Shown here one piece after another: positions 28,175 to 50,619 of a stretch of 64,000 bases of DNA; the first letter of the stretch is position 1, and every line of letters starts with the position of its first letter. Source of the DNA: Phlebopus portentosus (Eukaryota; Basidiomycota; Agaricomycetes; Boletales; Boletinellaceae). The notes beneath the pieces were generated by a model that was given only the letters and a program-made list of their open reading frames with translations, ran no database searches and was not told the DNA's origin. Position numbers and translations under genes: made by a program. Where the stretch lies: positions 62,001-126,000 of the forward strand of contig JAYXKI010000017.1 in assembly GCA_037892935.1 (NCBI GenBank). Reading direction: 5' to 3'.

Positions 28175-28177
28175 ACT

Positions 28178-28757: not shown

Positions 28758-28795
28758 ACATATGCTCAGCCTTACTTGCCTGCTGTGCCTATATA

Positions 28796-31709: not shown

Positions 31710-31722
31710 TCACCCCCCCTTC
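31710..31722 (-). promoter_or_regulatory. Polypurine tract of the outer element
   Basis: On the minus strand, GAAGGGGGGGTGA directly precedes the 3' LTR, where plus-strand DNA synthesis would start. The pol stop codon TGA is formed by its last three bases. Confidence 0.8.
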
Positions 31723-34700
31723 AAGGTTGGGCATCCCGACCAACCACATAAGCCTTCTGAGGACGTGAACTTGTACAGCGCTCGCAGGCTTTGTCGAGGT
31801 ATCGTTAACTTCCTTGGAGCTCCAGGATGTTTGCGATAGAATTCTTGAATTGACTCCTGCGCATTATTCTTGACGTCGGATTCTGGCTGCCAAGTCGCTT
31901 CCTCATATCCAACCCACTTGACCAGGAATTGGAGCTTGCCTCGATGCAGACGCGAGTCGAGTATTTCTTCAACCTCGTACTCTTCCTGCTCATCAATGAT
32001 CACTGGCGGTGGTGGAGGTGGTTTCTTCTGCGATTCAAAGGACGGTTGGACGGCTGGTTTGAGCAAGATCTCATTGAAAACTGGATGGACCTTCTTCCAG
32101 GTCTTCGGTAGTTTGAGTCTGTATGCGCTTGCGCCAACCTTTTCCACTACCTCGAAGGGACCGAACTATTTATCATCCATCTTCTTTGTCGGTCGGATCG
32201 TCTTGATATTTCGTCCATCTAAGAAGACTTTCTGCCCTGCCTCATAGGTAATGGACTTCCCAGCATGGCGGTCGTAGAAACGCTTCATGTCTTCGTTTGC
32301 TTGGGTTAGGTTACCTTGAGCGAGTTCGTGCACCTCCTTGACATGTTTGGCAAATTCTTCTGCTGACAGGTTCGATGATGCCGTTCCAACCCCCGTGAAG
32401 TCTAAGGGGTGCATTCCCGTATTGACGAAGAAGGGAGATAGCTTCGTCGCTGAATGTTCACGATTGTTGTATGCGAATTCTGCGAGAGCCAGCCAGTCCG
32501 CCCAGTCCGACTGCCGATGGTTGACGTATAGCCACAGGTATTGTTCTAGTTCCTGATTAACCCGCTCTGTCTGTCCGTCAGTTTGTGGGTGATACGCTGT
32601 CGATGGGTTGCCTTCAATGTGGAGGAGCTTGTACAACTCCTTCATCATCTTTGCGTCAAATTGCACCCCTCGGTCATGAATGATCTTCCGTGGTAGTCCG
32701 TGTAATCGGAAGACGTGGTCTCTGTAGATCCTAGCCATGCCTTCCGCCGTTAACTTTGTCGTTGTTGGAATTGCATGGATTTGTTTGCTAAAGCGATCGA
32801 CCACTACGCAAATCGCATTGAACCCATTCGATTCTGGCAACTCTCCGATTAGGTTGACCGTGACAATCTGCCATGGCGCCTCCGGCACCTCATTAGGGTG
32901 CAAAACCTTTGCTCTCGTTGTCCTTAGAGCCTTCGTCCGCTGACAACGATCACACCCCCGCACGTACACCCGCACATCTGCACTCATCCTTGGCCACCAG
33001 TACCTGCGTGCTATCAGCTGGATCGTCTTTGTTGCTCCTGGATGTCCTGCCAGGGTCGAGTCATGGTGTTCCTTCATGACGTCCTCTCTGATGCTCGCTG
33101 GTACATATAGTCGGCGGCCCTTTCTCCACATGTCCCCTCTCTTCTCGACGTCCTTCGGCCTCACTCCCTCGTCCTCTTGTCTCTGCGCTTCCACAACCTT
33201 TTCAACGAGTACTTCTCTTGACGTCTGAACCATTCCTCTAACCAGCCATTCCTTCTTGATGAAAGTCATGTTCTCATTATCGCGCTCGCCCTTGTCATAA
33301 TCCGCCCGGCGTGACAACAGATCAGCTTTTCCCAACGTCTTTCCGGGTTTATGGACTAGCATGAAATCGAACTCAGCTAAATCGAGTCGCCAACGAGCTT
33401 GTCGACGATTTAACTTCTGTGGCGATCGGAAGTACGTTAGATTTGCATGGTCTGTCCATACCTCAAAAGGTTGGTTAGCTCCCTGGAGATATTGTCGCCA
33501 TTCCTTTAGGGCTTGAATGATGGCGAGCATTTCCTTGTCGTAAATCTCATAGTTTCGCTCTGCCTCTAGGAATGTTGACGACCGATAAGCGATCACCTTC
33601 CATTTACCGTCTTGTTTCTGGAGAAGGACTCCACCAGTCGCAAAGTCCGACGCATCTGCTTCTACACGGAAAGGGTCCTCGTTGTTGGGTATCGCTAACA
33701 CGGGAGGACTACTCAAACGACGCTTCAATTCCTCAAACGCTGCCTGCTCATCTTCGCCCCATTTCCATTCCACCTTACCCGTTAGGGTAGTCAAGGGTTT
33801 GACGACCGAACTGTAATCCTTAACAAAACGTCGCAACCAATTTCCTAATCCCAGGAATTGTTGCAGTTCGTGGACGTTCCTTGGAACTGGCCAGTCCTGT
33901 ACTGCCGCCGTCTTCTTGGGATCCATTCGAACTTCGCCATTGCCAATAATGTGCCCGAGGTACTTGACTGTATCAACTTCGAACTCGCACTTCTGCGGCT
34001 TTAGGAAAAGTCCGTTTTGGCGAAGGATCTCAAAGACTCGTTTGTTGCGTCTGCGGTGTTCTTCTAGATCATTCGAGAAGATGAGAATGTCATCGAGGTA
34101 AATGATGACGATACCCTCATGAATTAGCTCCCGAAAGATGTCATTCATAAAGCCTTGGAATGTCGCTGGCGCATTACACAAGCCAAAAAACATGACTGTG
34201 GGTTCAAATAAGCCTAGATTTGTCCGGAACGCTGCCTTCCACTCGTCTCTCTTGCGAATCCGGATGTTGTAGTATCCCCAACGAACGTCGAGCTTCGTGA
34301 TGTACCTTGCATCCTTAACCTTGTCGATGAGCTCATTTATCAGTGGCAACGGGTATTTGTTCTTGACCGTTCCTTCATTGAGCTTTCGATAGTCTTGGAT
34401 TGCTTGTAAGCTCCCATCCTCTTTCTTGATAAAGAAGAATGGTGATGCCATTGGAGACTTCGACTGTCGGATACGTCCTGACGCTAGGTTTTCCTCAATG
34501 AACTCCCTCATCGCTTCTTGTTCCTTTGGCGATAACGGGTAAACCTTGCAGTCACTGGGTTTGAAATCCGGTTTCAGGTCAATAGCGTGGTCCCACGTTC
34601 GGTGGTTTGGTAAGCGTTCGAACGATTCCTCACTAAAGACGTCGGCGTATTCCTCCAGGTAAGGTGGCCATTTTGCCGCTTCCTTCATCCGCACATTCCT

Positions 34701-35600
34701 CACAAACTCTTCATCTATCTCCTCGCTCGACAGTGGCGACTCACATTCATCAGGGCAACGGGTGAACTTAACTGTTCCTAACCTCCAATCAATCTCAGGA
34801 TTATGCTTCGTCAATCAGTCATGTCCGAGGAAGATGTTGCTTGACGCTAAGGATGTCACTGCCAGTCGAATCTCTTCCTCGTGTTTCCCAAAGAACATTC
34901 GTACGACTACGTATTCCTTGATCAATCCAGCCTCGTTGCTTGTTCCGTCAGCATTGAAGACTGGTCTAGGCCGAATGTACCTTTGGGTGGGGAAACCATA
35001 CCGTTTGACAAATCCTTCATCGATGCATGAGCCCGTGCACCCTGAGTCGATCAGTGCATGAGCATCAATGAAGTTTTCCTCTTCGAGTAGGGGGTTCGAC
35101 AAGTCTACTTCGTCATCACCTGCTACCTTTGGGTGTACGATGCTAACGAAGGCGTCTAACTCCTTTCCTCCCGCCCATCGCACGAACTGATCTGCGTCCA
35201 CAATGCCCTCGCACCATACCTCAGCCGCGCGTCTGCCTACTACATCCCACACTGCTTCAGTGACGTTCGCCTGAGCAACAACGTTCTCGCGGTAAGGTGC
35301 TTCCGCCACAACCTCATTTTTTATAGCGGTTTGATTCCGCTCTTCCTCTCTCAATTCGCCTGCTTGCGCATCTGTTCTTCTGACAAATAAATCTTCATAG
35401 ACTTCGAAGTCATCGTTGTCATCTTCAGATTCATCTGGCAGTACGTCGGTAAGGATCTTTTGAAGGATGAAACCGTCACTGGTATTCGCATCTTGATATT
35501 GTACAACAGGACGATTATATTTTAACGAGTCCAACGAAAAGAGTCCTTTAGGAGACCGACCAGTTGTTCCGACATCTACGCCTGGTCTTCTGGAAAACCC
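31710..35600 (-). pseudogene. Pol of the outer chromovirus, with two nonsense codons and a changed integrase active site
   Basis: The order is aspartic protease (HALIDSGCTGS), reverse transcriptase (LDVRWGYYNIRI, FFGLCNAPATFQ, IIYLDDILIFS), RNase H (VEADASDFATGGVLL, TDHANLTYF), zinc-binding integrase domain (CDRCQRTK), integrase core (HDRGVQFD, TDGQTERVNQ) and a C-terminal chromodomain (YEVEEILDSR, FLVKWVGYEEATWQPE). The frame is broken by TGA at 34815-34817, right after FLGHD where TGG is usual, and by TAG at 32166-32168. The first catalytic Asp of the integrase is Asn (TVNLIG, codon at 32853-32855). Pol lies in the -1 frame relative to gag, with a GGGTTTT heptamer at 35594-35600. Inactive as it stands. 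Confidence 0.92.
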
Positions 35601-35920: not shown

Positions 35921-35949
35921 GGCTGTGTTACGAAAATTGTGGATATACA

Positions 35950-36933
35950 ATGCGGCGTCGTATCAGACATTTTACACACCGAATTATGCAGCCTAATCAA
36001 GAGCATTTCGAAAGGCTCCAAGGACAGAATAGTGGAGGTGATTCTCGCCCACTAGTACAGCAAGGACCTGGGGAGGTCGCTGTGGAATATATTCAAGAGG
36101 AACCCGATCGACGATATTACGAGGACGAACGCGATGAAAGGGAGGACCCATACGATTTACAGCAAGGACTAGCTGGAATGCACATTGGACATACTCCTCC
36201 ACCCGAGCGAAGCTACGTGGATATGGAAGAACGGAACATCGCAAGATACGTGGAACTCCTGCAGAAGAGACGATATCGACATAGTGCAACCAGACACTTT
36301 GTTCATGAAAGCCTGGTTTGTACAAACTGCTATTTGGCATACCAAAGGAGTTGGGTTCTTTCGGAGTGGCTCCTCAAGAACTTCGTGGAGCGCTTAGTAA
36401 CTAGAGAAGGGGCCGATGTCAAGATTCGGCATAAACCCGGACCCTCAGAACGAACGTTTGACCAACCATTGCCGAACCGCGGAATGAGCGCATACGATCA
36501 CGAGGTATCTGTATGGCTCGGCGACAGGGATATCTATGCACTGAAGGTCGGCGTGAGAGCTTGGATCAATCAGCATCGTCACCAGACCTTGTGTCGAAAC
36601 ACTGCAGTGGAAGTCGACTGGCCAATCTATTACAGTGCGCCATCGGACGTCGAAAGTCTTATCGAAGAAGCAACAGATCGGATGCTAGAAGCATGGGAAC
36701 GATCGGAAGAAGGGGTTATTACAGTCGACGAATGGCGCGAGACGAATCACCTGGGAAGAAGATACAGGTTAACGTCGGGTACCGGACTACAATTCTCCGA
36801 CATCGATATCGCGGCTAGGCACAGAAGGGTGTCTGCTAAATTTACACAGCCGCCAAGGTTAATCTCCGATGATCGGCAGGGGTTGCCGATCCCAAATCCC
36901 GAGATAACGGTCAGCCCCATGATGGAAGACTAA
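35950..36933 (+). CDS. Open frame of 327 codons inside the 5' LTR
   Basis: ATG 35950 lies 24 bases into the LTR in a good start context (ACAATGC). The product is hydrophilic with an Arg/Glu/Asp-rich first third (DRRYYEDERDEREDPYD). A globular-looking middle with many aromatics follows (VCTNCYLAYQRSWVLSEWLL, DIYALKVGVRAWINQH, WPIYYSAPSDVESL), and it ends in SPMMED. No membrane segment, zinc motif or known domain is recognised. It lies in U3, upstream of the presumed transcription start, so in this copy it would need another promoter. The identical frame in the 3' LTR would be present at the end of the genomic RNA. Confidence 0.6.
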   Translation: MRRRIRHFTHRIMQPNQEHFERLQGQNSGGDSRPLVQQGPGEVAVEYIQEEPDRRYYEDERDEREDPYDLQQGLAGMHIGHTPPPERSYVDMEERNIARYVELLQKRRYRHSATRHFVHESLVCTNCYLAYQRSWVLSEWLLKNFVERLVTREGADVKIRHKPGPSERTFDQPLPNRGMSAYDHEVSVWLGDRDIYALKVGVRAWINQHRHQTLCRNTAVEVDWPIYYSAPSDVESLIEEATDRMLEAWERSEEGVITVDEWRETNHLGRRYRLTSGTGLQFSDIDIAARHRRVSAKFTQPPRLISDDRQGLPIPNPEITVSPMMED

Positions 36934-37277
36934 CGGCAGAAGCTCGGCCGGAGTAACGGAGCGCCGGCGAAGCGAGATCGCGGCACATGGAAGAAGTCTC
37001 TCGTGGGAGGATTGGCGTTAAGGATTAACATGTGATAGGAACGGAGATCGATAGAAGCCTGGGGAAAGCTTCTTCGGAACGGAAGGAAATTAGTGCCTGC
37101 CTAATAGGGAAGGAGGTAGTCGGTGGTGCAACCAGGAGTTTCGGTAGCACCACCAGAGTTGTCAGTGGTACTACAGACTCAAGAGAGTAGTAGTAACACC
37201 AGCTGAAACACATTGTCCTAACCAATGGCGAGGCATGGTCGGTAGTATTTGGTAGTCGGTAGTATTCAGTAGAAACT

Positions 37278-37285
37278 TTATTTAA
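37278..37285 (+). promoter_or_regulatory. TATA-like site in the inner 5' LTR
   Basis: TTATTTAA is followed by a GC-rich stretch. This would start transcription near 37310, leaving about 220 bp of R and U5. The same site lies at 48383-48390 in the 3' LTR. From here to 37900 there is no ATG at all. Confidence 0.45.
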
Positions 37286-37666
37286 GGCGCCAGCTGAGCG
37301 GGGTGTTGTCCCTCAGCAAAATTATTTTGTACTTTCAATCATAACTGTACCCCTTTGATTGAACCTCTGCTCTACTGCTGGGTCAAGCTTGAGCCTATAG
37401 CTCGCTTCTTAGTAGTATATCTAACCTTCGCTACTCTACTCTCCAAGCATACATTGTCAGAAGGAGGAAGCAGGGACTTGTTCCGGTACGCTCGGACTGA
37501 CCACCTCGTCCGAAAACGCTGGTCCTAACATTATAATTTTGCTCCAATCCTGGGATAATCAATCTTGCTGTTTCATAGTGCAATACCCACTATCGATCAG
37601 TAAGTATTGCTCTGCCCTGGGAGGGTTTCTTCTGTGCCTGTTATACAATTAGCTGATCACCGATAA

Positions 37667-38584
37667 GCGTATCGTCGACGGCTAAAGCAGGCTTACACAC
37701 TCCATCGGAGTTTTGTTAGAGCGCTCCATACATTCGAAGAAGAAGTCGATTCGGCGTTTCGCACGATAAACTTCTATCGAGGTAAGAAGCACTCAAACAC
37801 CCCTATCCTAGAACCCTACCGGTCGGTTATACTATCCGCCCTGGAGCTTCGAATCACCGCCGAAAGACACGAAAGAGTTGGGAGGAAGTTCTTGCTTGTA
37901 CATGCGGACAACCTATTGAACGGACACAGTTTCAATTGGGAAGCACTCAGAGGCCCGACGCCAGTTGAAGAAGAACTACTCGCTCTGTGTCAGGAATATA
38001 AAGCGTTCGAATACACCTTACTCGAACATTCTCATTTCCTCCATCAAGTCCTTTTACAAGTCTATCAAGGCAACTATACTACTGCAAAACAACTATGTCA
38101 CCGATGGAACTGTGGCAAGTTGGTTGGTCTAGTCTCTGGCTTACACTCTGCATCGTCTGGTTTTCTTCCATGGTATACATCGTTGCTCAACAACTCCGAG
38201 GTCGAATCAGCCTTCTTCGAGGCTTTGGAACGCTATGGACGTGGATGGAATGGCAAGACAACGAAAGAAGTACCCCATTCCGTCAAGCCGGTCGGAGATT
38301 TCTACTCCAAACTCAACGACTGGCAGTTCCTCAACCCGGACCTGGAGAATGTATGGAATCCGCTCTGGCACGCATCAGCGAACGACTCGACAGTCTACAC
38401 GGACGCTTGGACCGAATGGTCAGTACTGACGGGCAACCCAACCAAGTTGTCTCCGCCCTGCGACACGCCGTCATCGACCTCGACAATCGACTTACTAGCG
38501 TTGATCGGTCCCTCAGAACTCTCACAGCTACTGTCGCTCGACTCTACGACATGGGCTCTCAATACTCCGAGAACCTTACTGTAG
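37667..38584 (+). other. Pre-gag open frame A, without any ATG
   Basis: 306 codons are open between TAA at 37664 and TAG at 38582, with not one Met codon. The translation looks protein-like, with amphipathic and aromatic patches (FVRALHTFEEEVDSAFRTI, VILSALELRITAERHERV, FYSKLNDWQFLNPDLENVW). It could be entered by splicing (an AAAGCAG acceptor ends at 37690 in phase), by a non-AUG start, or by frameshifting. Its downstream half overlaps frame B in the -1 phase. I do not recognise a family, and it may be a chance frame in part. Confidence 0.4.
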
Positions 38585-40002
38585 AAGGACAGACACTGGG
38601 GGAGTTTCTGGCGCATATCCAGGGACACGTCGGGGATGCGATCGCCGAGGCAGTCATCACCAACCTCAGGCGAGAAGGCGAACAGCGGGACGTACGACTC
38701 AACTATGCGTTCGGTATTCTTCAGGCTCGTATTCTGGGAGCGGTAACAATGGCCATTCAGGGCAGTCAATCAGCCCTTGCTCAACAAGTGGTCAACTCCC
38801 AGCAAGAAATTATTCGGCTGACTGGTACGGACTTCCTGCAGTTACACATGCAGGCTAGCTACCTGGTCGAACAGGTTGAGGCTATCCGAGCCCGGATCAG
38901 CAATGCCGAGGAAGAACTCGCGGCCCAGTACTCGATCACGGAAGGCATCCGTCGGATCCAACAAACGATTAGGCTTCGTCAATCCTACCTGACGCAGCGA
39001 GCTAGGCGAGGAGGGGCAAGGTTGAGCCCTGACTCCCCGCTGCAAGGTAGAGGCCTAGGTCTAGCTAGCCGCTTTGAAAGTGTGAGCTCAGACTCCGACG
39101 ACGACCAGATGCCCAGCCTGATCCCAGCAGGAGAACGCTTTGTGGATCAAATGGTCGAGATCATTCGCCAGAGCAGGGAACCAGGAGGAATGGACACTCG
39201 AACAGGACAACCGTCGTCGCAGTTGCGACAGCAGGCAGTAGAAGTTGGAAGGAGCTACGTCGCCGAGGTAGTTGCGGAAAGAGGGCTGGTAGCGCCTGCT
39301 GCGCTCGCCCAAGAGGAACAGGAAGTTGAAGGAAACATCGAAGTTGAAGAAGATCTCCCAGACTACGTCTCCACAGACACCCAACCCGGAAGCCTGGACC
39401 AGCAAGCAGAAGAATTGCTGAGGGAGGTAATTCCGGAGTCGCCACAGCCCTGGCCATCCAACGACGGATGGGGACCGCCTCCCGATGCTGGGGAAGCATG
39501 GGAGGCGGACAACACTCGAGAAACGGGGTATGGCACGGGAATCCCGGAACTCATGTGGAACGAGCAAGGAGAGCTCATCGAGGGAGCTATCCAAAGGCTG
39601 GGATGGAACGGCCACTACGTCGAAAGAAATCACCTCCAGTACCCGCACCAGGACTCGCCGCCAGGATCGCCTACTCCAAGTGCTCTTGTGCTTGAGGAGA
39701 GAGAAGCAAGGCTCCAGGCGGTCAGTGAGTACTCCCCAGACTCCGATTATATTTATGGTCCTATCATTCGTCCTAACAGCTGCCCTATACCATCGGAGTT
39801 TCTCGATATACGAGAGGGACTACCAAGGCAGGGGGTAGCAAACATGGCGAGGGTAGTTTGGGTGCGAGGTAACGACGTAGAAGAGCCAACCAGCGAGGAT
39901 CAAGAGTACTTCGATGCTAATGACGACTGGGAGACAGAAGAGGAAAGTGAGGAACACGAAAGCGGCGAAGAACGATACGAAGCTCGGGAAGAAAGGAGAT
40001 AG
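38095..40002 (+). CDS. Pre-gag open frame B, coiled-coil and acidic-tail protein
   Basis: 635 codons from ATG 38095. A second ATG at 38353 opens directly onto a strong heptad pattern (ESALARISERLDSLHGRLDR) and would give 550 residues. Coiled coils continue through VIDLDNRLTSVDRSLRTLTA and EAIRARISNAEEELAAQY. A Pro/Glu-rich middle (SPQPWPSNDGWGPPPDAGE) and a very acidic C-terminus (DDWETEEESEEHESGEE) follow. It stops 197 bp before gag. There is no cysteine-histidine box, so it is not a second nucleocapsid. The role is unknown: a structural or Gag-associated accessory protein is one guess. Confidence 0.6.
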   Translation: MSPMELWQVGWSSLWLTLCIVWFSSMVYIVAQQLRGRISLLRGFGTLWTWMEWQDNERSTPFRQAGRRFLLQTQRLAVPQPGPGECMESALARISERLDSLHGRLDRMVSTDGQPNQVVSALRHAVIDLDNRLTSVDRSLRTLTATVARLYDMGSQYSENLTVEGQTLGEFLAHIQGHVGDAIAEAVITNLRREGEQRDVRLNYAFGILQARILGAVTMAIQGSQSALAQQVVNSQQEIIRLTGTDFLQLHMQASYLVEQVEAIRARISNAEEELAAQYSITEGIRRIQQTIRLRQSYLTQRARRGGARLSPDSPLQGRGLGLASRFESVSSDSDDDQMPSLIPAGERFVDQMVEIIRQSREPGGMDTRTGQPSSQLRQQAVEVGRSYVAEVVAERGLVAPAALAQEEQEVEGNIEVEEDLPDYVSTDTQPGSLDQQAEELLREVIPESPQPWPSNDGWGPPPDAGEAWEADNTRETGYGTGIPELMWNEQGELIEGAIQRLGWNGHYVERNHLQYPHQDSPPGSPTPSALVLEEREARLQAVSEYSPDSDYIYGPIIRPNSCPIPSEFLDIREGLPRQGVANMARVVWVRGNDVEEPTSEDQEYFDANDDWETEEESEEHESGEERYEAREERR

Positions 40003-40198
40003 GCCCTGGTTTAGAGCTGGGAGCTTGCCAGGAGGAAGGAAGACGCCCAAGAACCGACCGGGAGGAAGGGTAAGGTGGCTAGTTGGAAAGCGGAGGTGGT
40101 ACTCGCTGGATAACTTAGCTACTAAACCGTGTATTATTGTAATGCGCTGAATGAGAGTGATACTCATAAAAATGTTGGTTGAATTCGTCTAGGTCAAT

Positions 40199-41221
40199 AT
40201 GTCAAACAAAGACATCATGAAGTATCCCTTATTTAAGGGAAACCCTTATGAGTCGCTTGAGAACTTCCAGAATCAAATGATCAGCCGGTTGAATGAAAAA
40301 CATCCGAGCGACCCAGTCAAGAGGGTTAAGATTATTTTAGAATGTCTGCGAGGTCAAGCTCAGACTTGGGTTAATGGCAAATGGGCCGTGAACAGAAATC
40401 AATTAGTCTCCACCTATAAGCGGAATGCGAACAATGAGCTTGTTATGGACAAGAAGGGTGGATGGGACGACGAGGACGATCTATGGAACGAATTAGCGCT
40501 CAACCATAACGGCATTTTTGGACTTCAAGAAGAAGCCGAGCGAAATATTAGGACGATTTATCAGGAACGGGCGCGGGTGAAGCAGTATAACAGGGCCTTC
40601 GACGATATTAGGATGAGGCTGCCAAAGCATTACGACCACCAGGCGCTGATTTATGAGTACAAGAGGGGACTCAATCAGACGATCCTAAAGGCCCTGCTTA
40701 CGAATACAGACCACCCAGGTTGGGACCTGAACCAATGGAAGGAGAACGCTAGCAATCTGGAGGCCAGTCTGATGGCTGCCAAGGTGATAGGCAGTAATAG
40801 GAAATACACCCCTATGTTTAAAGATGGGCAGGCGGTATCGTACACGCCAGTGCCCCCAGAAGCTCGCCGTCCAGCTGAGTTTCTGGGTGAGCCTATGGAC
40901 ATTGACATGTCTAGGCGCTTTACTAGAGGGTCCCGAGGAGATGCCGGGATATGCTGGGCATGCGGCAAAACAGGTCACTTCGCACGGGACTGCAACAATG
41001 TAGGGCGAGACACACAGGGAAGCCGTGGACACCGAACCAACTACAAGAGACGGGTGCAGAAGAGACGATCTGGCAAGACTGGCCGCTTCCTAAAACGCCG
41101 GGAAGTTGGGATTAGCAGCGATTCTGAAATGGAAGAACTACTGGACAAGAGAACGAAGTTACCAAGGCGTAAGGAATGGGCTTCGTATTCCCTCGAGGAG
41201 GATTCCGAGGAGGATTTTTGA
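40199..41221 (+). CDS. Gag of the inner chromovirus
   Basis: 340 codons from ATG 40199. The capsid-like region (YPLFKGNPYESLENFQNQM, ILECLRGQAQTWVNGKW, FDDIRMRLPKHYDHQ) is followed by one CCHC zinc knuckle (CWACGKTGHFARDC) and a basic, then acidic, tail. The stop TGA follows GAT TTT, giving a TTTTTGA context. The pol frame (-1) opens 49 bases earlier, so Gag-Pol could arise by -1 slippage at the Phe codon before the stop or by restart at ATG 41176. Confidence 0.92.
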   Translation: MSNKDIMKYPLFKGNPYESLENFQNQMISRLNEKHPSDPVKRVKIILECLRGQAQTWVNGKWAVNRNQLVSTYKRNANNELVMDKKGGWDDEDDLWNELALNHNGIFGLQEEAERNIRTIYQERARVKQYNRAFDDIRMRLPKHYDHQALIYEYKRGLNQTILKALLTNTDHPGWDLNQWKENASNLEASLMAAKVIGSNRKYTPMFKDGQAVSYTPVPPEARRPAEFLGEPMDIDMSRRFTRGSRGDAGICWACGKTGHFARDCNNVGRDTQGSRGHRTNYKRRVQKRRSGKTGRFLKRREVGISSDSEMEELLDKRTKLPRRKEWASYSLEEDSEEDF

Positions 41222-44200
41222 AGGGCCGTCAGTCGACATCGGACACTGGCGAGGGCTCGAAGGACACACAAGAGATAAAGCGCCGATGGACTATTGCTAG
41301 ACCAAATTCCAACCATCCTACTATACCCATTGACGTCATTCAGGGACAGAAAAAGGTTAATCTCTCGGCTATGATTGACTCCGGATCTGCAATCACTACT
41401 ATTAGCCCCACGGTGGTACAGAGCCTAGGGCTGAGAACAGTGCCTGCAGAAGGTAATTATACCATCCGGAATGCCGATGGATCGATTAATCATGGTGGAT
41501 GGACTCGGAACGTCAGAGCAATAGTGGACACAGGGATTACAAGAGGTTTAATGGACATCGCAGTGGTGGATACACACGAAGACAAGTTTCTCATAGGAAA
41601 TGATTGGCTTGAACAGCATAAGCCAACCATCGACTGGACAAAGGGGATTCTTCGCAAAGGCGGGAAGGAAATTGCTTTTAATGGGACGGCACGACTGCGT
41701 TCCATACAGCTAATCCTAGCCCCAAGGAAGCTCCGAAAACGCAGAAGATGGCGAAGAATTCCAGACTACATTCCACCCGAGTGGGATGCCGATGACGAAA
41801 AAGAAGAAGCTTGGGAAACTAGGGTCTACTACCACAGCGACATCGAAACAGGACAAGAAACCGAGAAGGAAGACATAGAAGAAGAACCTACGATCGTACC
41901 ACCAGATAAAGGAAAAGAAAGGGAACCGACAAAGCCGCTTGTCACGTTCGACGAAGTCATGCACAAACCACCGGAGCTTTCCTTCATCAAACAGGAAGGA
42001 AGCTGGAAATTCTTCTGGTTTGGGGACAAGTGCCAAATCACTAAGGACGAACAGACTTGGCACGACTTCGACAGCCTCGAAGATGCGGATAACACGGTTT
42101 ACCGCACCATGGTCAGAGACATGGACAGGGGCGCAAGTAAAGATGAACTCTTCAATGAGTATGGCAGCATGTACGCGGCACGGCTTCAATTATTGGCGAT
42201 ACAGGAGAACGTCGGAATAGCAGCGTCGCCAACGACTTCGGAAGCACAGGCAAGAGTGCGAGAAGAAATACATGCGCAAATGACGGTCGATGCCGAGGGA
42301 TCGGATACAACTAGAAGGAAGAAGCCTAGTGTGCCGCCGAAGGGAGGAAAACCGGGGCACTATACAGCAGATCCGCTCAGGGTACGACGACAGAAGAGTG
42401 GAGGAAGTGGTACGGATTCGAACCCTGTCATAAGGAGTATTAGGGTGGAGTGGACTCCTCCATCCGTGCACGAGGGCCAAAATGACTCAACCCTGGCAGT
42501 GCAGAAGCAGTCGGTAAGCTTCACCACACGAAGCAGGGGTACAAGCAGGAGTACTTCGGGTCGGGAGCGCCGTAGAACTAAGGCTACGAAGCGTACTAGG
42601 TTCGGCCACCTAGCGAGATCTCCTCCTACGAGAAACCGAGGAGTGACTAGACATGAGACGCCGTTCAAGGGTAGGCTAGTGTCTAGGAAAGTGGTCCACC
42701 CCAAAGGGAGGGTAGTCCCACTAAATTGGCACAGGGCCGAAGTTAGTACGCCGCAATCATCAAGTAGGCTAGCTTCGGGAGCTCAAGTGCGCCCGCGAAG
42801 ACCACGGTTTAAGAACCAAATGCAGGGCCCTGCTCCGACAGGGAAAACAAACGGTAAAGGTAACAGGTTCATTTTGAATTATGCCGCGATGGAGCAGGGG
42901 CTCTCGCAGGGGCAGAAGAGGCGCCGATGGCGCACGCCTGTTGACTCGGTCATGCAGCCGCCCAAAGTGGAAGGAAAAGTGCTAGAGAGAAGAGCTGGAT
43001 CTGAGACGGAGTTCAAGGGTATCCTAGGATCGCACAAGCCTGCTACCTCAGGGGAAGCAGAGGACGCCTCTCGAAGAGGAAGGCCACCCAAGCCTCCTCA
43101 CTGGATTCGCCGTCTAGAGCATCGACAAGTCGCATCAAGGAGAGAACGCCTTCTCAAGTATAACAGCATAGCTCAAAAATATGCGCAGGAGAAAGCACTC
43201 GATGAAAGGATGGCAGACTCTGCTGGCGACAAATCTCTCGAAGACATTCTTCCAAAACAAATATGGGAGTTCAGGGATAGGTTCGACAAGGACGCTGCTA
43301 AGCGGCTACCTGAGTCGGGACAATGGGACATGAAGATCGAGCTCCTACCAGGGGCAGAGCTCCCGAAACCTGGACCGGTATATCCACTCGCTCCTGCTGA
43401 AAAGCGTGCGGTAGAAGAATGGATTCGTGAGGATCTGAAGAAGGGATGGATTCGTGTTGTAGGAAACCGAGTACCAGCTGAAGAAAAAGCGAACACTTGC
43501 GCACCAGTATTTGTCATAGCCAAGAAGACAATAGGGAAGGATGGCAAGCCGGAGTACAGAATTGTTATCGACTATAGAGGGCTAAATGCGGTGGTTATTC
43601 CAGACCACCAACCGATGCCTCTATTACATATGCTCCCGGACGACCTTGCGCATGCCAAATGGTTCTCTACACTGGATTTGCGAAGTGGGTATAACAACAT
43701 TCGAATACACCCTGGGCACGAGAAGTATGCCGCCTTCAGGACTCACATGGGAGTATACCAGCCGATGGTAATGCAGTTCGGATTAATGAATGCACCTGCG
43801 GTATTCCAACGTGCAATGAACGAGCTCTTTCAGGACATGATTGGGCAGGGCATACTCATTTATCTTGACGACATTATAGTCTATGCGGAAACGGAACAGG
43901 AACATTGGGACCTGCTAGCAGAGGTATTGCGCAGGTTAAGGGAAGCGGACTTCTTCTGTAAACCAGAGAAGTGCTACTTCGGAAAGAAGGAACTCGACTA
44001 TTTAGGATTTGTGGTTAACCAGTCGGGCATGCAGATGGATCCCTACAAGGTAAAGGCGGTTCAAGAATGGCCAGATTTGTCAAGCAAGCGAGACATTCGA
44101 AAGTTTATCGGTTTTGCAAACTTCTACCGAAAATTTATCGAGGGCTTCGCCAAGATCGCTAGGCCACTAACGGAACTTATGTCAGGCAAGAAGACATTCA

Positions 44201-46509
44201 CCTGGGGAGAACGACAACAAGAGAGCTTTAAGAAACTTAAAGAAGCTTTTACCACTGCACCAATGCTAGTACGACCGGATCACGAGAAGCAATTTGTGCT
44301 GGAAACCGACGCGTCAAACTTTGCGATGGGAGCCGTGCTCTCGCAGCTCGGGGACGATGAAATTTTGCACCCCATTGGATATTGGTCGAACACCTACCGA
44401 GACGCTGAGAATAACTATCCAGTAATGGACAAGGAATTACTAGCGATTGTCAAAGCCTTGAGCAACTGGAGGCACCACTTGGAAGGAGCTAAACATGAGA
44501 TTCGAGTGGTTAGCGATCAAGCGAACCTTCGATATTTTATGGGAGCAAGGAAACTAAGTGGCCGCCAAGCAAGATGGGCGACATTTCTCAGCAGATTTCG
44601 ATTTCGAATCGAGTATCGACCTAGAACCAAGAATTCACGAGCGGACGCATTATCAAGGAGGCCAGACTACGAACAGGGCCAAGAGGACCAGCCAGAACAA
44701 GTCCTACTTCCTCCGCAGTTGTTCAGGACATCGGACCTGCCCATGCGCACAGTACGGGTATTTGAGCTTACAGGGGGTCCTGAACTGGGAGAGAAAATTC
44801 GAGACGCCTATGAACGATCCAAAGAGCCAGCAATCGGAACGTTCGAAGAAGGATATTGGTGGAAGGATGATAAATTGGTTATCCCACCAGATGAAGAAGT
44901 TAAGAAGGAAATCGTACAACAGTGCCATGACGCACCGGCGTCAGGACACCCGGGGTTACAGAAAACTATAGACAAACTGGAAAGAAGAGTTTGGTGGCCG
45001 AAGATGAGGGAATGGGTCGAAGAATATGTGCGCACTTGCGACGTGTGCCAGAGGACGAAAGCGCGACGAGGAAAGACACAACCACCGCTGCAACCATTGC
45101 AGATAGCGACAAGGCCCTACGACGAGATTACCATGGACTATGTCACCGGACTTCCAACGACGAGCAAAGGAAACAATGCGATACTAGTGGTGGTAGACAG
45201 GTTCTCTAAAATGGGAACTTTTATACCTACTACAGTAAATGCAAACTCGAAGACCACTGCAGACTTGATGATCAATTATGTCTACAGCAAGGTCGGAACT
45301 CCTAAGACAGTAATCAGCGACAGAGGACCCCAATTCGCTAGCCGGTTTACAGAACAGGTGAACCAGGCCCTCGGGATTGAAACGAAGCTTAGTACGGCGT
45401 ATCATCCACAAACAGATGGTCAAACGGAGCGAGTAAATCAAGAAATGGAACAGCTGTTACGTTGCTATTCCAGCTTGCAGCAGGACGACTGGGACGAACA
45501 TTTGCCTATGGCAGAATTCGCCTATAACAGTCGCTCTCACTCCAGTACAGGCAAGACGCCATTTGAATTGGTGTATGGATTTCAGCCGGAATTAGGATTC
45601 AAGCTTCCGATCCGAGGAACTCAAGACTATGTGGCTATGCGAAAGAAGAATCAAGAAGAAGCAACAAAGGCGCTGGAGAAGGCACGAGACGCAATGAAGA
45701 GATTTGCAGATAGACACCGAGGCCCGATGCCGTCATTCGAAGTTGGCGATAAAGTTATGTTAGATGGTCGGAATCTAACCTTGCTAGTTCCCACGAGGAA
45801 GCTAGGAGATAGAAACCTGGGACCTTATCAAATTATCGAGAAGCATGGGCTAGTCAACTACGAGTTGGATCTCCCGAAGGAATTGAGGATCCACCCGGTG
45901 TTCTACGCAGGACTATTAATTCCCTATCGAGAAAGGAAAGATCCGGCACAGAGAACAAGACCACCACCAGAAGTTATCGCTGGAGAAACCGAATACGAGG
46001 TTGAAGCGATCCGGGACATGAGGAAAAGGCACGGAAAATGGGAGTATCAGGTTAAATGGCTCGGCTACCCGGAGGAAGAGAATACCTGGGAACCTGTGGA
46101 AGGGCTACGCAATGCCCCAGAGAAATTGCGGGAGTATCACGAGAGGAATCGTTGGCCGGACACGATAGATCTTCCCTCTAGAAAGAAGATTGCGGATATT
46201 ATAGACTCTACGCAGAGAGTAATCGACATCAAGAAAGAAGATGATGAGTTCCTGAGGACGGCACTGGGAGAGTCCGTAGCTCAGAGGGTAATCAAGAGAA
46301 GGAGATACCAGAGCAAGACAGGTATCAAGCAGCGAGATTTCGGTTATCCGGAATGGCACAAGCGTCATTGGAGAGCCGCAAAAAGGCCATTCACTCGAAA
46401 CAAAGCGCTGCCAGTTCGCAGATGGGATCTGCCAGAAGAAAAAGGGGATCCTTCATACAAGGATTGGTTTTGGGCTGACTCCTCGGATAGCGAGTACAGC
46501 GAGGCTTAG
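41173..46509 (+). CDS. Pol of the inner chromovirus
   Basis: 1777 codons from ATG 41176, in the -1 frame relative to gag. The protease is AMIDSGSAITT (near 41371). A basic linker of about 500 residues follows. The reverse transcriptase has TLDLRSGYNNIRI, FGLMNAPAVFQ and ILIYLDDIIVY, with YLDD near 43861. RNase H has LETDASNFAMGAVLS and VSDQANLRYF. The integrase has the zinc domain (CDVCQRTK) and a complete D,D-35-E triad at 45136, 45319 and 45427. The chromodomain is YEVEAIRDMR to YQVKWLGYPEEENTWEP. An extra basic/aromatic tail of over 100 residues follows it (RKKIADIIDSTQRVIDI, then WHKRHWRAAKRPF). No stop or frame break was seen, so it looks functional. Confidence 0.96.
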   Translation, partial: GMGFVFPRGGFRGGFLKGRQSTSDTGEGSKDTQEIKRRWTIARPNSNHPTIPIDVIQGQKKVNLSAMIDSGSAITTISPTVVQSLGLRTVPAEGNYTIRNADGSINHGGWTRNVRAIVDTGITRGLMDIAVVDTHEDKFLIGNDWLEQHKPTIDWTKGILRKGGKEIAFNGTARLRSIQLILAPRKLRKRRRWRRIPDYIPPEWDADDEKEEAWETRVYYHSDIETGQETEKEDIEEEPTIVPPDKGKEREPTKPLVTFDEVMHKPPELSFIKQEGSWKFFWFGDKCQITKDEQTWHDFDSLEDADNTVYRTMVRDMDRGASKDELFNEYGSMYAARLQLLAIQENVGIAASPTTSEAQARVREEIHAQMTVDAEGSDTTRRKKPSVPPKGGKPGHYTADPLRVRRQKSGGSGTDSNPVIRSIRVEWTPPSVHEGQNDSTLAVQKQSVSFTTRSRGTSRSTSGRERRRTKATKRTRFGHLARSPPTRNRGVTRHETPFKGRLVSRKVVHPKGRVVPLNWHRAEVSTPQSSSRLASGAQVRPRRPRFKNQMQGPAPTGKTNGKGNRFILNYAAMEQGLSQGQKRRRWRTPVDSVMQPPKVEGKVLERRAGSETEFKGILGSHKPATSGEAEDASRRGRPPKPPHWIRRLEHRQVASRRERLLKYNSIAQKYAQEKALDERMADSAGDKSLEDILPKQIWEFRDRFDKDAAKRLPESGQWDMKIELLPGAELPKPGPVYPLAPAEKRAVEEWIREDLKKGWIRVVGNRVPAEEKANTCAPVFVIAKKTIGKDGKPEYRIVIDYRGLNAVVIPDHQPMPLLHMLPDDLAHAKWFSTLDLRSGYNNIRIHPGHEKYAAFRTHMGVYQPMVMQFGLMNAPAVFQRAMNELFQDMIGQGILIYLDDIIVYAETEQEHWDLLAEVLRRLREADFFCKPEKCYFGKKELDYLGFVVNQSGMQMDPYKVKAVQEWPDLSSKRDIRKFIGFANFYRKFIEGFAKIARPLTELMSGKKTFTWGERQQESFKKLKEAFTTAPMLVRPDHEKQFVLETDASNFAMGAVLSQLGDDEILHPIGYWSNTYRDAENNYPVMDKELLAIVKALSNWRHHLEGAKHEIRVVSDQANLRYFMGARKLSGRQARWATFLSRFRFRIEYRPRTKNSRADALSRRPDYEQGQEDQPEQVLLPPQLFRTSDLPMRTVRVFELTGGPELGEKIRDAYERSKEPAIGTFEEGYWWKDDKLVIPPDEEVKKEIVQQCHDAPASGHPGLQKTIDKLERRVWWPKMREWVEEYVRTCDVCQRTKARRGKTQPPLQPLQIATRPYDEITMDYVTGLPTTSKGNNAILVVVDRFSKMGTFIPTTVNANSKTTADLMINYVYSKVGTPKTVISDRGPQFASRFTEQVNQALGIETKLSTAYHPQTDGQTERVNQEMEQLLRCYSSLQQDDWDEHLPMAEFAYNSRSHSSTGKTPFELVYGFQPELGFKLPIRGTQDYVAMRKKNQEEATKALEKARDAMKRFADRHRGPMPSFEVGDKVMLDGRNLTLLVPTRKLGDRNLGPYQIIEKHGLVNYELDLPKELRIHPVFYAGLLIPYRERKDPAQRTRPPPEVIAGETEYEVEAIRDMRKRHGKWEYQVKWLGYPEEENTWEPVEGLRNAPEKLREYHERNRWPDTIDLPSRKKIADIIDSTQRVIDIKKEDDEFLRTALGESVAQRVIKRRRYQSKTGIKQRDFGYPEWHKRHWRAAKRPFTRNKALPVRRWDLPEEKGDPSYKDWFWADSSDSEYSEA

Positions 46510-46520
46510 GAAGGCCTAAG

Positions 46521-46637
46521 CATATTTGACCTGAACAAGTCATTAAACTATTCCAAGCGTACTGGGACGTACCTTGTAAGTTGGGACCGACACTAATCGA
46601 GGTCATATTTGACCTGAACAAGTCGTTAAACTATTCC
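46521..46637 (+). repeat. Direct repeat pair downstream of pol
   Basis: CATATTTGACCTGAACAAGT followed by [C/G][A/G]TTAAACTATTCC-type sequence occurs at 46521-46554 and 46604-46637, 83 bp apart, in the 3' non-coding tract of the inner element. Confidence 0.85.
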
Positions 46638-46707
46638 TAGCATGTTGGGAAGCATCTAGTATGTTGGAAGCCGACACTCAGCGAGGCTTTGAGTTATTGA
46701 GCAAGTG

Positions 46708-46845
46708 TCACGTGACCGCCGCCTTTCTCTGAGAACAGGTTGAGCGTCAATCACGTGATTGCCACACTCTCATCCAAATAGGAAGTGTTTAAGTCACATG
46801 ACTGCCGCACTTTTGTTCAGATGGGTTGTGCGTCAGGTCACATGA
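46708..46845. promoter_or_regulatory. Four periodic TCAC[G/A]TGA palindromes
   Basis: TCACGTGA at 46708 and 46751, and TCACATGA at 46795 and 46838. The spacing is 43, 44 and 43 bp, each within a diverged ~43-bp unit (GTCA-box-TGCCGCAC-like). The core CACGTG is the E-box bound by bHLH regulators. The position, 180 bp before the 3' LTR, suggests an enhancer-like tract, but no function is shown. Confidence 0.6.
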
Positions 46846-47019
46846 TCAATAACGAGATGAGGACTCTGGATGTACAGTGCTACAGTTATTCCAGACAAGA
46901 GGAATGAGACACTAGTACACAAGAAGGGTCTGGTCTAGGGAGCAACGATACGAAACAGCAAGATTATGGCTACCACAATTAAGGGATCCACACTCTCCTT
47001 GCAGTCCGAAGTGGATCTT

Positions 47020-47030
47020 AAGGGGAGGAA
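47020..47030 (+). promoter_or_regulatory. Polypurine tract of the inner element
   Basis: AAGGGGAGGAA directly precedes the 3' LTR at 47031. Confidence 0.85.
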
Positions 47031-48635
47031 TGTTACGAAAATTGTGGATATACAATGCGGCGTCGTATCAGACATTTTACACACCGAATTATGCAGCCTA
47101 ATCAAGAGCATTTCGAAAGGCTCCAAGGACAGAATAGTGGAGGTGATTCTCGCCCACTAGTACAGCAAGGACCTGGGGAGGTCGCTGTGGAATATATTCA
47201 AGAGGAACCCGATCGACGATATTACGAGGACGAACGCGATGAAAGGGAGGACCCATACGATTTACAGCAAGGACTAGCTGGAATGCACATTGGACATACT
47301 CCTCCACCCGAGCGAAGCTACGTGGATATGGAAGAACGGAACATCGCAAGATACGTGGAACTCCTGCAGAAGAGACGATATCGACATAGTGCAACCAGAC
47401 ACTTTGTTCATGAAAGCCTGGTTTGTACAAACTGCTATTTGGCATACCAAAGGAGTTGGGTTCTTTCGGAGTGGCTCCTCAAGAACTTCGTGGAGCGCTT
47501 AGTAACTAGAGAAGGGGCCGATGTCAAGATTCGGCATAAACCCGGACCCTCAGAACGAACGTTTGACCAACCATTGCCGAACTGCGGAATGAGCGCATAC
47601 GATCACGAGGTATCTGTATGGCTCGGCGACAGGGATATCTATGCACTGAAGGTCGGCGTGAGAGCTTGGATCAATCAGCATCGTCACCAGACCTTGTGTC
47701 GAAACACTGCAGTGGAAGTCGACTGGCCAATCTATTACAGTGCGCCATCGGACGTCGAAAGTCTTATCGAAGAAGCAACAGATCGGATGCTAGAAGCATG
47801 GGAACGATCGGAAGAAGGGGTTATTACAGTCGACGAATGGCGCGAGACGAATCACCTGGGAAGAAGATACAGGTTAACGTCGGGTACCGGACTACAATTC
47901 TCCGACATCGATATCGCGGCTAGGCACAGAAGGGTGTCTGCTAAATTTACACAGCCGCCAAGGTTAATCTCCGATGATCGGCAGGGGTTGCCGATCCCAA
48001 ATCCCGAGATAACGGTCAGCCCCATGATGGAAGACTAACGGCAGAAGCTCGGCCGGAGTAACGGAGCGCCGGCGAAGCGAGATCGCGGCACATGGAAGAA
48101 GTCTCTCGTGGGAGGATTGGCGTTAAGGATTAACATGTGATAGGAACGGAGATCGATAGAAGCCTGGGGAAAGCTTCTTCGGAACGGAAGGAAATTAGTG
48201 CCTGCCTAATAGGGAAGGAGGTAGTCGGTGGTGCAACCAGGAGTTTCGGTAGCACCACCAGAGTTGTCAGTGGTACTACAGACTCAAGAGAGTAGTAGTA
48301 ACACCAGCTGAAACACATTGTCCTAACCAATGGCGAGGCATAGTCGGTAGTATTTGGTAGTCGGTAGTATTCAGTAGAAACTTTATTTAAGGCGCCAGCT
48401 GAGCGGGGTGTTGTCCCTCAGCAAAATTATTTTGTACTTTCAATCATAACTGTACCCCTTTGATTGAACCTCTGCTCTACTGCTGGGTCAAGCTTGAGCC
48501 TATAGCTCGCTTCTTAGTAGTATATCTAACCTTCGCTACTCTACTCTCCAAGCATACATTGTCAGAAGGAGGAAGCAGGGACTTGTTCCGGTACGCTCGG
48601 ACTGACCACCTCGTCCGAAAACGCTGGTCCTAACA
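47031..48635 (+). repeat. 3' LTR of the inner element
   Basis: 1605 bp, identical in length to the 5' copy with two substitutions seen. Confidence 0.95.
47055..48038 (+). CDS. Open frame of 327 codons inside the 3' LTR
   Basis: Same frame as at 35950, with one amino acid difference (PNCGMSAYD against PNRGMSAYD; a CG-to-TG change at 47583). In this copy it lies in U3 downstream of pol. It would therefore be carried by full-length RNA before the polyadenylation site in R, the arrangement of accessory genes such as nef or sag in some retroviruses. Function unknown. Confidence 0.6.
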   Translation: MRRRIRHFTHRIMQPNQEHFERLQGQNSGGDSRPLVQQGPGEVAVEYIQEEPDRRYYEDERDEREDPYDLQQGLAGMHIGHTPPPERSYVDMEERNIARYVELLQKRRYRHSATRHFVHESLVCTNCYLAYQRSWVLSEWLLKNFVERLVTREGADVKIRHKPGPSERTFDQPLPNCGMSAYDHEVSVWLGDRDIYALKVGVRAWINQHRHQTLCRNTAVEVDWPIYYSAPSDVESLIEEATDRMLEAWERSEEGVITVDEWRETNHLGRRYRLTSGTGLQFSDIDIAARHRRVSAKFTQPPRLISDDRQGLPIPNPEITVSPMMED

Positions 48636-49745
48636 GGCTGCTTGTTGAGGTGGCATAAAACGTCTTATTGATGGTGTCGGAGCTGGTTTCATCGCTGTCG
48701 AACTAATTGTCTTTCTCCGACGTTCAGCCATCAGGTCCCTGATTTGGCGCTCGACCCTGTCGACCTTGACGGCGGCTTTCTTGAACTCTTCATACGACGT
48801 CGGTTCATTGGGCAATCTCATGACCCCTTCCACAACCTTCGGGTTTAGCGCCCTCTTCAGGCGACTCATCAACCATTCGTCGTGTGCCTCTGTTGCTAGG
48901 TCAGCATCCACTCGACAAATGTCAAACTTGTTGAAAAACTCGTCGGCGTTGAGGTCTCCTTGGTACATTGCATCTAGTCGTTCGAAGGCCTTTTGGGATC
49001 TGGCAGGGTCATCGAACGAAGTGTCCAGCTTCTTTAAGAAGGCGTCCCAGGCGTCCGTGAACGTCAGGTTGCCGTCTGCGTCGACTGCTCCACTGGTGTA
49101 ACTTTCTGCCCAGCGAGCCGCAGCACCACTCTTCATGTACGACAGGGCGAACATAATCTTACTCTTGTTCGTCCTGAACTCTGACTCAGATGCGTAGATG
49201 TAGAGGCGCAGCTCTCGCTTGAAGTCCACATAATCGTGTTCACCATCGAAGTCTCTTGGTTTGGCGATGTGGACCTTCTTCGACACCTTTGACCCTTGGT
49301 TCGCACCTTCGCCTGCAGCTTGGAGCGCTAGTGCGACCACCGTCGCGAGATCAGTCATCGCTTCTTTCGATAATGACATCTCATGTTCTTCTTCTTCTTC
49401 TTCGTCTTCTTCACTCGGTATAAGCGGCGCTGGTTCTCGGAACTTCCCAAACGCCGGAGAAGGCTCGACAGTGGGGGCCAACGCTTGGGTGGTCGAACCC
49501 AATGGTTCTGGTAAGGGGGCTGTTGGTTGCGTCGGAGTAGGAGGTGAGGGCTCGTCTACGTCGTCTTCTTGTTTCACTCTCCAGTGGATGGACCTTCCTT
49601 CCCTCTGGGAGTACCACCTCTTGGCAGTCTCGTCCCACCAGGCGCCGAAGACTTGATTTCCTGCTTTGACGATATAATGTCCCCGCGAGGCGCTCCACCT
49701 AGAGTTCGCAGGGAGGGCCGCTCGTTGCTCGTCAGTTAGCTCCAC
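48636..49745 (-). pseudogene. N-terminal and capsid part of outer gag, cut by the inner element
   Basis: 370 codons. After a variable region (EPSPPTPTQPTAPLPEPL) comes an acidic run (PSEEDEEEEEEHE). The retrotransposon Gag domain follows (KPRDFDGEHDYVDFKRELRL, AARWAESYTSGA, FKKAAVKVDRVERQIRDLM). The frame opens at TAG about 30 codons upstream and has no ATG there. The natural start position holds GTG (49745), possibly a mutated ATG. It reads off into the inner LTR after PPQQAA. Confidence 0.88.
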
Positions 49746-50161
49746 CTTGATAGGCTGGGGGTGGAACGGGGATCGGGATGCTGTTCGGGCGGGACCGACT
49801 TCGGATAACCGGCTCGTCTTTGAAATTGATGACTAAATGAAAGGCTCCGAGGTAGATAATGAAGGAGATACTTGTCGACGACTGGACTCTATGCGTTACC
49901 CACGAGAAGGTTTGATGGGAGTTCCAGAGAAGGGTGATTCGGAGTGCCACGGTGATGTGATTGGTTGATACTTCGGGTACTATCGGGTCACGTCAGAGTC
50001 AATCGGACTTCGACGGGCAAGATAGGGGTTTGTTGTCTGCACGGTAGGAACCGGGTTTCGTTCGATGTCGTCCTTCGAAGATATACTTCAGGGGACACGT
50101 CACAGGCGAGCGCTCGACGACAACGGAATCGGGCGTGAGCCAGAGGTAGGTCTTTCTATTA
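49746..50161 (-). other. 5' leader of the outer element
   Basis: 416 bp between the 5' LTR and gag. A typical tRNA-complementary primer site starting TGG right after the LTR is not visible; a self-primed mechanism cannot be excluded. Confidence 0.6.
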
Positions 50162-50619
50162 TGTTAGGCGGACAGCTCAAGGACTGAGTCGAGGCAGGCC
50201 AACACAACAACAAACAAGCGTGAATGAGATAATCCCAAACACGTCGCTCAGGTCAAGACAGCTAAGACGAGGCTTAAGTCCAGACCGTCGAACGCTAGGT
50301 CGCAGTGAAGGTAAGTAGAATTCAGCAAACTAATAATACAAGAGTAGATACCTAGGTCGCAGTGAAGGTAAGTAGAATAGAAAGACAAGGAACGAAAGAG
50401 TCAAACTATCTACTTATATAGACTTTGGGCACGGGAAAGGTCTACCCTAATGGGAAGTCACATGACAAGGAATGGGATGATTAGTGAGCGTGATAGAACA
50501 TTGTGGAATGTTCCGGCAAAAGGATGAATAAGCGCATAAGAAAAATAAAAGAAAAGAAAAAGAATATTAAAATAAATGATGACGTCAGAAAAGAAAAGGA
50601 AAATGTTCGAGTCCTTACA
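50162..50619 (-). repeat. 5' LTR of the outer element
   Basis: 458 bp. It differs from the 3' LTR at four visible positions, all transitions, and is followed by the GTTAT target duplication. Confidence 0.95.

Follow-up and report, generated by a model that had tools for sequence, protein, structure and literature searches.

The usual view of long terminal repeats (LTRs) is that they are regulatory and do not code for protein, and most fungal Ty3/gypsy elements count as gag-pol only. A gene within an LTR is best known from a few animal retroviruses. In the 64,000-nucleotide stretch of Phlebopus portentosus DNA analyzed here (the window), both 1605-bp LTRs of a chromovirus contain an uninterrupted 327-codon frame in U3, which an initial annotation of the sequence had proposed as an accessory gene. 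This raises the question of whether the frame is a gene of the element or an accident of a young repeat. Comparison of its copies across the genome shows that the U3 ORF is a protein gene maintained by purifying selection.

The host element has the features of a chromovirus. Its LTRs (TGTTAC...CTAACA) differ at 2 of 1605 sites, carry TG...CA ends and are bounded by a 5-bp target duplication, while pol follows the Ty3/gypsy order PR-RT-RH-INT with a C-terminal chromodomain (Pfam protease, RVT_1, RNase H, rve and Chromo; Table 1). The insertion interrupts an apparently minus-oriented outer element (31252-35600 and 48630-50461), whose repeats lie at 31252 and 50162. Elsewhere in the window, inverted repeats lie at 19957-20680 (248 nt, 100%) and 28177-28758 (263 nt, 86%).

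Table 1. Features of the chromovirus and its U3 ORF (window coordinates)
Feature	Position	Strand	Remarks
Target-site duplication GGCTG, left	35921..35925		
Host chromovirus element	35926-48635	+	LTR to LTR
5' LTR (U3-R-U5)	35926..37530	+	99.9% identity to 3' LTR; TG...CA; GGCTG duplication adjoining
U3 ORF, 5' LTR copy	35950..36933	+	upstream of predicted transcription start
TATA-like box	37276..37287	+	~30 nt before predicted R
Predicted R start, 11-nt self-primer AGCAAAATTAT	37315..37325	+	3' copy 48420-48430
Putative primer-binding site, complement of self-primer	37533..37543	+	two bases past 5' LTR
Candidate 5' splice site GTAAGTATTG, leader	37600..37609	+	9/10 positions invariant in 37 places, tenth in 36/37
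Leader ORF	37667..38584	+	third-position excess; no in-frame ATG
Second pre-gag ORF	38002..40002	+	first ATG 38095; S. vaninii relatives begin at 38551 equivalent
gag (Retrotrans_gag, zf-CCHC)	40199..41221	+	Pfam
pol: protease, RT, RNase H, integrase, chromodomain	41173..46509	+	Pfam
Candidate 3' splice site CTCTCCTTGCAG	46993..47004	+	invariant in 27/27 places; motif and spacing common to family 2
Polypurine tract AAGGGGAGGAA	47020..47030	+	
3' LTR (U3-R-U5)	47031..48635	+	
U3 ORF, 3' LTR copy, 327 codons and stop	47055..48038	+	stop-to-stop frame 47022-48038
CxxC (C124, C127)	47424..47435	+	invariant in 72/72 aligned sequences; kept in family 2
HxxxC (H211, C215)	47685..47699	+	invariant in 72/72 aligned sequences; kept in family 2
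Target-site duplication GGCTG, right	48636..48640		

The predicted U3 is about 1390 bp long, and the ORF fills most of its first three quarters, so that a complete coding frame lies within U3, as in accessory genes of the MMTV sag type. The open run of the real LTR, 335 codons inside the LTR and 338 from stop to stop, exceeds the longest run on either strand of 2000 first-order Markov sequences generated from this LTR (median 109, maximum 240 codons). As previously reported, the two copies differ by one codon, which encodes R177 in the 5' LTR and C177 in the 3' LTR. The initial annotation had rightly cautioned that two young LTRs are insufficient to show selection; collecting other copies gave a clear answer.

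A search of the 38.4-Mb genome (23 contigs) found at least 122 copies of the U3 ORF (122 of 241 candidates scored), of which 77 are stop-free and 45 contain at least one stop. From the 82 copies fetched, 81 yielded 72 distinct LTR sequences for alignment, 61 younger and 11 most diverged. L090 was left out, as no single match spans it (its 63-nt deletion in the frame is a multiple of three), and the partial extract L014b was dropped. Ten of the 81 LTRs are classed as solo, one of which adjoins another LTR, and nine of these ten are surrounded by a 5-bp duplication. Many stops or frameshifts in other family members had been named as evidence against a gene. Frameshifts inside the frame are absent from all 72 sequences, and stops do occur, mainly in older copies (6 of the 61 younger and all 11 most diverged sequences). 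One or two 9-nt deletions keep the frame, and a 1-nt insertion in 28 sequences sits at the stop codon, where a stop is still present. Elsewhere in the LTR, none of the 11 distinct indels is a multiple of three.

Shared substitutions follow the codons. Among the 61 younger sequences, variants present in at least four affect 9 first, 7 second and 49 third codon positions (327 sites each); non-coding U3 has such variants at 35 of 382 sites, and R-U5 at 11 of 215. Third codon positions therefore vary more than the adjoining non-coding U3. These shared variants comprise 16 nonsynonymous, 45 synonymous and no stop changes, and those found in two or three sequences comprise 32, 59 and 2. Singletons are relaxed, at 40, 32 and 1. 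The contrast between shared and singleton variants (Fisher p 8e-4, with the two-to-three-copy class outside the test and 13 multi-base codon variants set aside) is as expected if shared changes were inherited through active elements and singletons arose after insertion. Shared non-CpG transitions number 4 nonsynonymous to 29 synonymous against an opportunity expectation of 1.9:1 (p 3e-10), and shared CpG transitions 4 to 12 (p 0.003); shared transversions alone show no selection (8 to 4, p 0.14). Summed over the younger sequences, dN/dS is 0.12, far from the value near 1 that had been proposed as the mark of a non-gene. As a positive control, the pol C-terminus in 12 sequences varies at 7, 9 and 73 of 317 sites by codon position.

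The third-position pattern, the lack of frameshifts and the dN/dS of 0.12 together identify a protein gene under purifying selection. Same-element LTR pairs (21 candidates, 7 identical, the others totaling 32 nonsynonymous and 54 synonymous differences) are not a clean neutral control, because several pairs are too different to be simple sister LTRs. Since a protein search could favor intact frames, LTRs were additionally listed through their non-coding tail (40 of 179 candidates scored). Of the 40 full-length tails, 31 accompany a full frame without stops, 7 a frame with a stop, and 1 a frame matching only to residue 308. The last was outside the protein-search listing, yet it matches within a 292-codon open frame in a later genome search with a family 2 query.

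The functional start is likelier to be M13 (47091) than the first ATG of the ORF. The annotated proteins of Sanghuangporus sanghuang (P0003) and S. vaninii (P0004) begin at the M13 equivalent, and codons 1-12 lack the silent excess of the remainder, with 8 nonsynonymous and 5 synonymous variant codons in the 61 sequences. P0003, from a hymenochaetalean basidiomycete, is the closest annotated protein (97%), and P0004 has 64% identity; the genome itself resembles that of a Sanghuangporus. A second, shorter S. vaninii relative, ACEPAH_3246 (P0005), is two locus tags away from ACEPAH_3244 (P0010), a relative of the second pre-gag ORF, and these tags suggest that the two are linked. A profile search of a 5.8-billion-protein set returned only three Sanghuangporus proteins among the 7993 scored candidates, those sharing most words, and one scan of viral contigs returned no relative.

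Other chromoviruses of the genome extend the comparison. Searching the genome with RT (110 of 579 candidates scored) brought out a second family, whose RT is about 70% identical to that of the window's family (family 1), and a third at about 51%. The family 2 LTR begins at position 1763 (sense) of locus L091: of 32 matches, 7 cover the 3-kb query from end to end, and a further 21 start no more than three bases from this position. It holds a 246-codon ORF, 56 nt inside the LTR, that is homologous to the family 1 ORF. The two proteins align over 156 residues at 22% identity (BLASTP E 7e-10), and their profiles score 39.8 in hhalign, where 150 shuffles reach at most 22.7. A genome search with the family 2 protein (150 of 179 candidates scored) recovers family 1 U3 ORFs, including both window copies at E 2.6e-5, while the 3' ends of the two families do not align by BLASTN. 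Among the candidates scored, 12 of 28 near-complete family 2 copies are stop-free. Six fetched copies, decayed ones included, vary at 22, 13 and 48 of 245 sites by codon position and at 17 of 115 sites outside the ORF. Judging from these homologous genes in two families and the S. vaninii relative, the U3 gene is old. One match to the family 2 protein (G000:C14:910069-910557) lies in an open frame given as 13594 codons, which perhaps adjoins a run of N or is an assembly oddity.

Family 3 also has a U3 ORF, of 213 codons with a CxxC...HxxC motif, in an LTR of about 1567 bp (P0013 lacks its last residue). Its score against the family 1 ORF is reached by 12 and 16 of 150 shuffles with two profiles, which gives homology no support. 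A 397-codon sense ORF additionally lies between pol and the 3' LTR in this family (L098:593-1783).

Neither Pfam nor PHROGs offers a match for the family 1 protein (P0001), in keeping with the initial annotation, which had recognized no domain. Several weak matches were rejected as chance: a PDB match of P0001 (E 0.59), a PHROG match of P0004 alone (E 0.007), a DUF1570 match in two of the four members of set A1 (best E 0.0033) and a DUF7419 match in one member of that set (0.046). The structure-based search that had been recommended used two AlphaFold models, both low in confidence (pLDDT 37 and 46), and Foldseek returned no match at E <0.001 in PDB or BFVD. With such models and no fold match, it is conservation of the CxxC...HxxxC motif that suggests zinc binding. 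Between families 1 and 2 the U3 protein retains 22-26% identity, compared with about 70% for RT, and this faster divergence suggests a regulatory protein facing host factors. The product is probably a small zinc-binding regulator.

Tf1/sushi elements prime themselves: their primer-binding site pairs with the 5' end of their own transcript. The 11-nt complement between 37315-37325 and 37533-37543, with a matching layout in family 2, makes both families look self-priming. Together with the upstream TATA-like box, it places the predicted RNA start near 37315. During reverse transcription, the 3' U3 of the parent is copied into both LTRs of the new element, which gives each element two copies of the gene. 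Expression would come from the 3' copy, which is part of the genomic RNA; its 5' counterpart is upstream of the predicted start. Constant element sequence is found upstream of the 3' copy only, and solo LTRs lack it.

One route to expression would be a subgenomic mRNA in which splicing joins a leader donor (37600) to an acceptor at 47004, 26 nt upstream of the LTR. The U3 ORF would then lie close to the 5' end of the mRNA, but a short upstream ATG at the LTR junction (47029) would precede it, which counts against this route. The candidate GTAAGT donor is about 70 nt past the 5' LTR, and the retroviral major donor occupies such a leader position. At the other end, the 38 nt 46985-47022 around CTCTCCTTGCAG, which would make a good 3' splice site, do not vary in 27 places (these and the 37 places for the donor are matches above 93% identity that span the stretch, duplicates removed). 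Family 2 has the acceptor-like motif TTCTCCTTTTAG, likewise 26 nt from the LTR, with 14 of 16 bases agreeing in fixed register, as in 0 of 20000 shuffles. By eye, no perfect CTRAY branch site lies near the candidate acceptor, and for the family 2 leader the 1061 nt read contain no GTRAGT donor and a single GTATGT. The invariance of the acceptor-like motif could also reflect the needs of plus-strand priming.

Overall, it is likely that the U3 ORF is an old accessory gene of a self-priming-like chromovirus, expressed from its 3' copy and encoding a zinc-binding regulator. The least certain step is that the product is a small zinc-binding regulator at all and acts on the element's own RNA or chromatin, where it might serve export of unspliced RNA, transcription or counter-silencing rather than a structural or enzymatic role.

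Three other readings would deny the frame this status. Youth of the copies (7 of 21 candidate LTR pairs identical) and stops in 45 of 122 would suit a frame that is open by chance, or a captured sequence in decay, carried without selection by a young LTR family. This reading is rejected by the codon-position pattern of shared variants and the Markov simulation; with the intact frame, the low dN/dS, the S. vaninii relative and the family 2 homologue also against it, it is extremely improbable. Constraint on DNA or RNA, such as a promoter, enhancer or packaging signal with the open frame as by-product, is hardly more probable. U3 normally holds cis signals, and in pairs with dS 0.05-0.1 the non-coding U3 diverges less (about 0.03) than the silent sites of the ORF (about 0.08). 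However, positions 1 and 2 of one frame are constrained while the third is freer than non-coding U3, a difference that also opposes a chance frame, and cis signals would not preserve 22% protein identity and CxxC...HxxxC between families with 3' ends that cannot be aligned as DNA. Derivation from a residual env, or from a pol segment moved out of place, would explain the sense orientation downstream of pol, but pol is complete through its chromodomain and the product has no Pfam match. It also lacks the signal or transmembrane segment of an envelope protein, its maximum 19-residue Kyte-Doolittle mean being 0.47, so this origin is rejected as very improbable.

Two further alternatives accept the gene and concern its expression or role. 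A promoter in 46510-47030, the 520 nt that separate pol from the 3' LTR, could replace splicing, and this close rival is a serious possibility, though held at less than even. The stretch contains two CACGTG and two CACATG boxes, and a 30-nt block with one CACATG (46780-46809) has 3 variable sites where its neighbors have 14 and 13; maize Grande gene23, which has a promoter of its own, offers a precedent (in the part of PMC7264820 consulted). Against it, 46750-46779, which includes a CACGTG, has 14 variable sites, and it is the acceptor-like motif beside the LTR that is strictly conserved, with its exact spacing kept in family 2. A tandem duplication with 83-nt spacing is also present at 46521-46840. 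As for role, the protein might limit the element as Ty1 p22 does, an LTR-element precedent (PMC4599808, in part). Two copies per element plus ORF-bearing solo LTRs would raise dose with copy number. Such copy-number control is nevertheless unlikely: solo LTRs lack the constant upstream region, and a self-limiting gene should be easily lost to cheating copies, yet this one is kept in two diverged families.

An accessory gene of the element, the preferred reading, has parallels elsewhere. MMTV sag lies inside U3 of the 3' LTR, and the HIV nef frame extends into U3 of the 3' LTR in partial overlap. Unlike nef, the chromovirus ORF is wholly inside the LTR and is therefore present in both LTRs. The likeness to sag, which is made from a singly spliced mRNA (PMC6692512, in the portion available), concerns layout, with no claim of sequence similarity: sag belongs to an animal retrovirus, whereas the fungal ORF has CxxC...HxxxC and no detected hydrophobic segment. 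For function, the closest working model may be CERV of Caenorhabditis elegans Cer1, an accessory protein made from spliced mRNA and needed for nuclear export of unspliced genomic RNA. The available portion of that report describes it as highly divergent between species and without obvious homologues outside nematodes (PMC10309623). Divergence and a spliced mRNA are shared with our proposal, but CERV has a five-exon mRNA whose first exons are in the gag frame, and the likeness implies no sequence relation.

Within Ty3/gypsy elements, conserved extra ORFs near the 3' end are known from Botrytis Boty (brtn), Grande (gene23), Retand and RIRE2, and are described, in the sections consulted, as lying between pol and the 3' LTR (PMC7264820, PMC11963269). 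These are antisense and outside the LTR, whereas the U3 ORF is sense and inside it. Rice Retrosat2 combines long LTRs with an extra ORF0 before gag-pol, but ORF0 is internal, and the part of the report consulted describes no LTR-encoded protein (PMC3485330). A 2010 BMC Genomics survey of fungal chromoviruses, likewise chromodomain Ty3/gypsy elements, gives sizes from 4.4 to over 13 kb and one or two ORFs in the majority, some with an additional ORF of unknown function; its excerpts mention no ORF inside LTRs (PMC2864245). Among the literature matches listed, drawn from narrow phrases with subscription papers outside the scope, none is a fungal ORF inside an LTR. The LTR-internal position is already known from MMTV sag, and additional Ty3/gypsy ORFs are known upstream of gag or in the stretch from pol to the 3' LTR.

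A selected U3 gene in two diverged families indicates that fungal intracellular retrotransposons can evolve accessory genes where some retroviruses do. Genuine coding sequence can consequently be lost to repeat masking, and protein genes may reside in solo LTRs. The element also offers a system for asking what use an accessory protein has without adaptive immunity and without known infection.

More tentatively, this fungal lineage may have independently evolved a plan like that of complex retroviruses, with an ATG-less leader gene, a second pre-gag gene, subgenomic splicing that joins a leader donor to an acceptor close upstream of the polypurine tract, and a zinc-binding regulator in U3. If so, even solo LTRs would carry the last of these, as it lies wholly in U3. 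Within 37667-38094, the leader ORF varies at 11, 3 and 38 sites by codon position (15 rows representing 13 places), and upstream of 37902 all three frames of RNA begun at the predicted start are free of ATG. The family 2 counterpart is a 166-codon frame without Met (L100, sense 354-851), related by tblastn (E 7e-4) with a score of 26.6, where 100 shuffles reach at most 22.3. A non-AUG start or unusual splicing is possible. For an exon reaching from U5 into the leader ORF, shared variants number 5, 3 and 10 by codon position, too few sites to go by. The leader also contains a candidate 68-nt intron (37600-37667) with GTAAGT, CTGAT and AG unchanged in nearly all copies examined and a variable interior, and the ATG-less frame opens at its AG.

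The second pre-gag ORF has S. vaninii relatives with 51% and 57% identity over 72% and 33% of the query. Variable sites in 38095-38430 follow the leader ORF frame, which makes the first ATG (38095) no more than a candidate start. After its first ATG come a hydrophobic stretch and coiled-coil-like sequence, and it weakly matches a PHROG of unknown function (E 4e-6). In family 2 (L091, L092 and L100), an ATG-free leader of about 450 nt is accompanied by a 201-codon Ser-rich frame just before gag.
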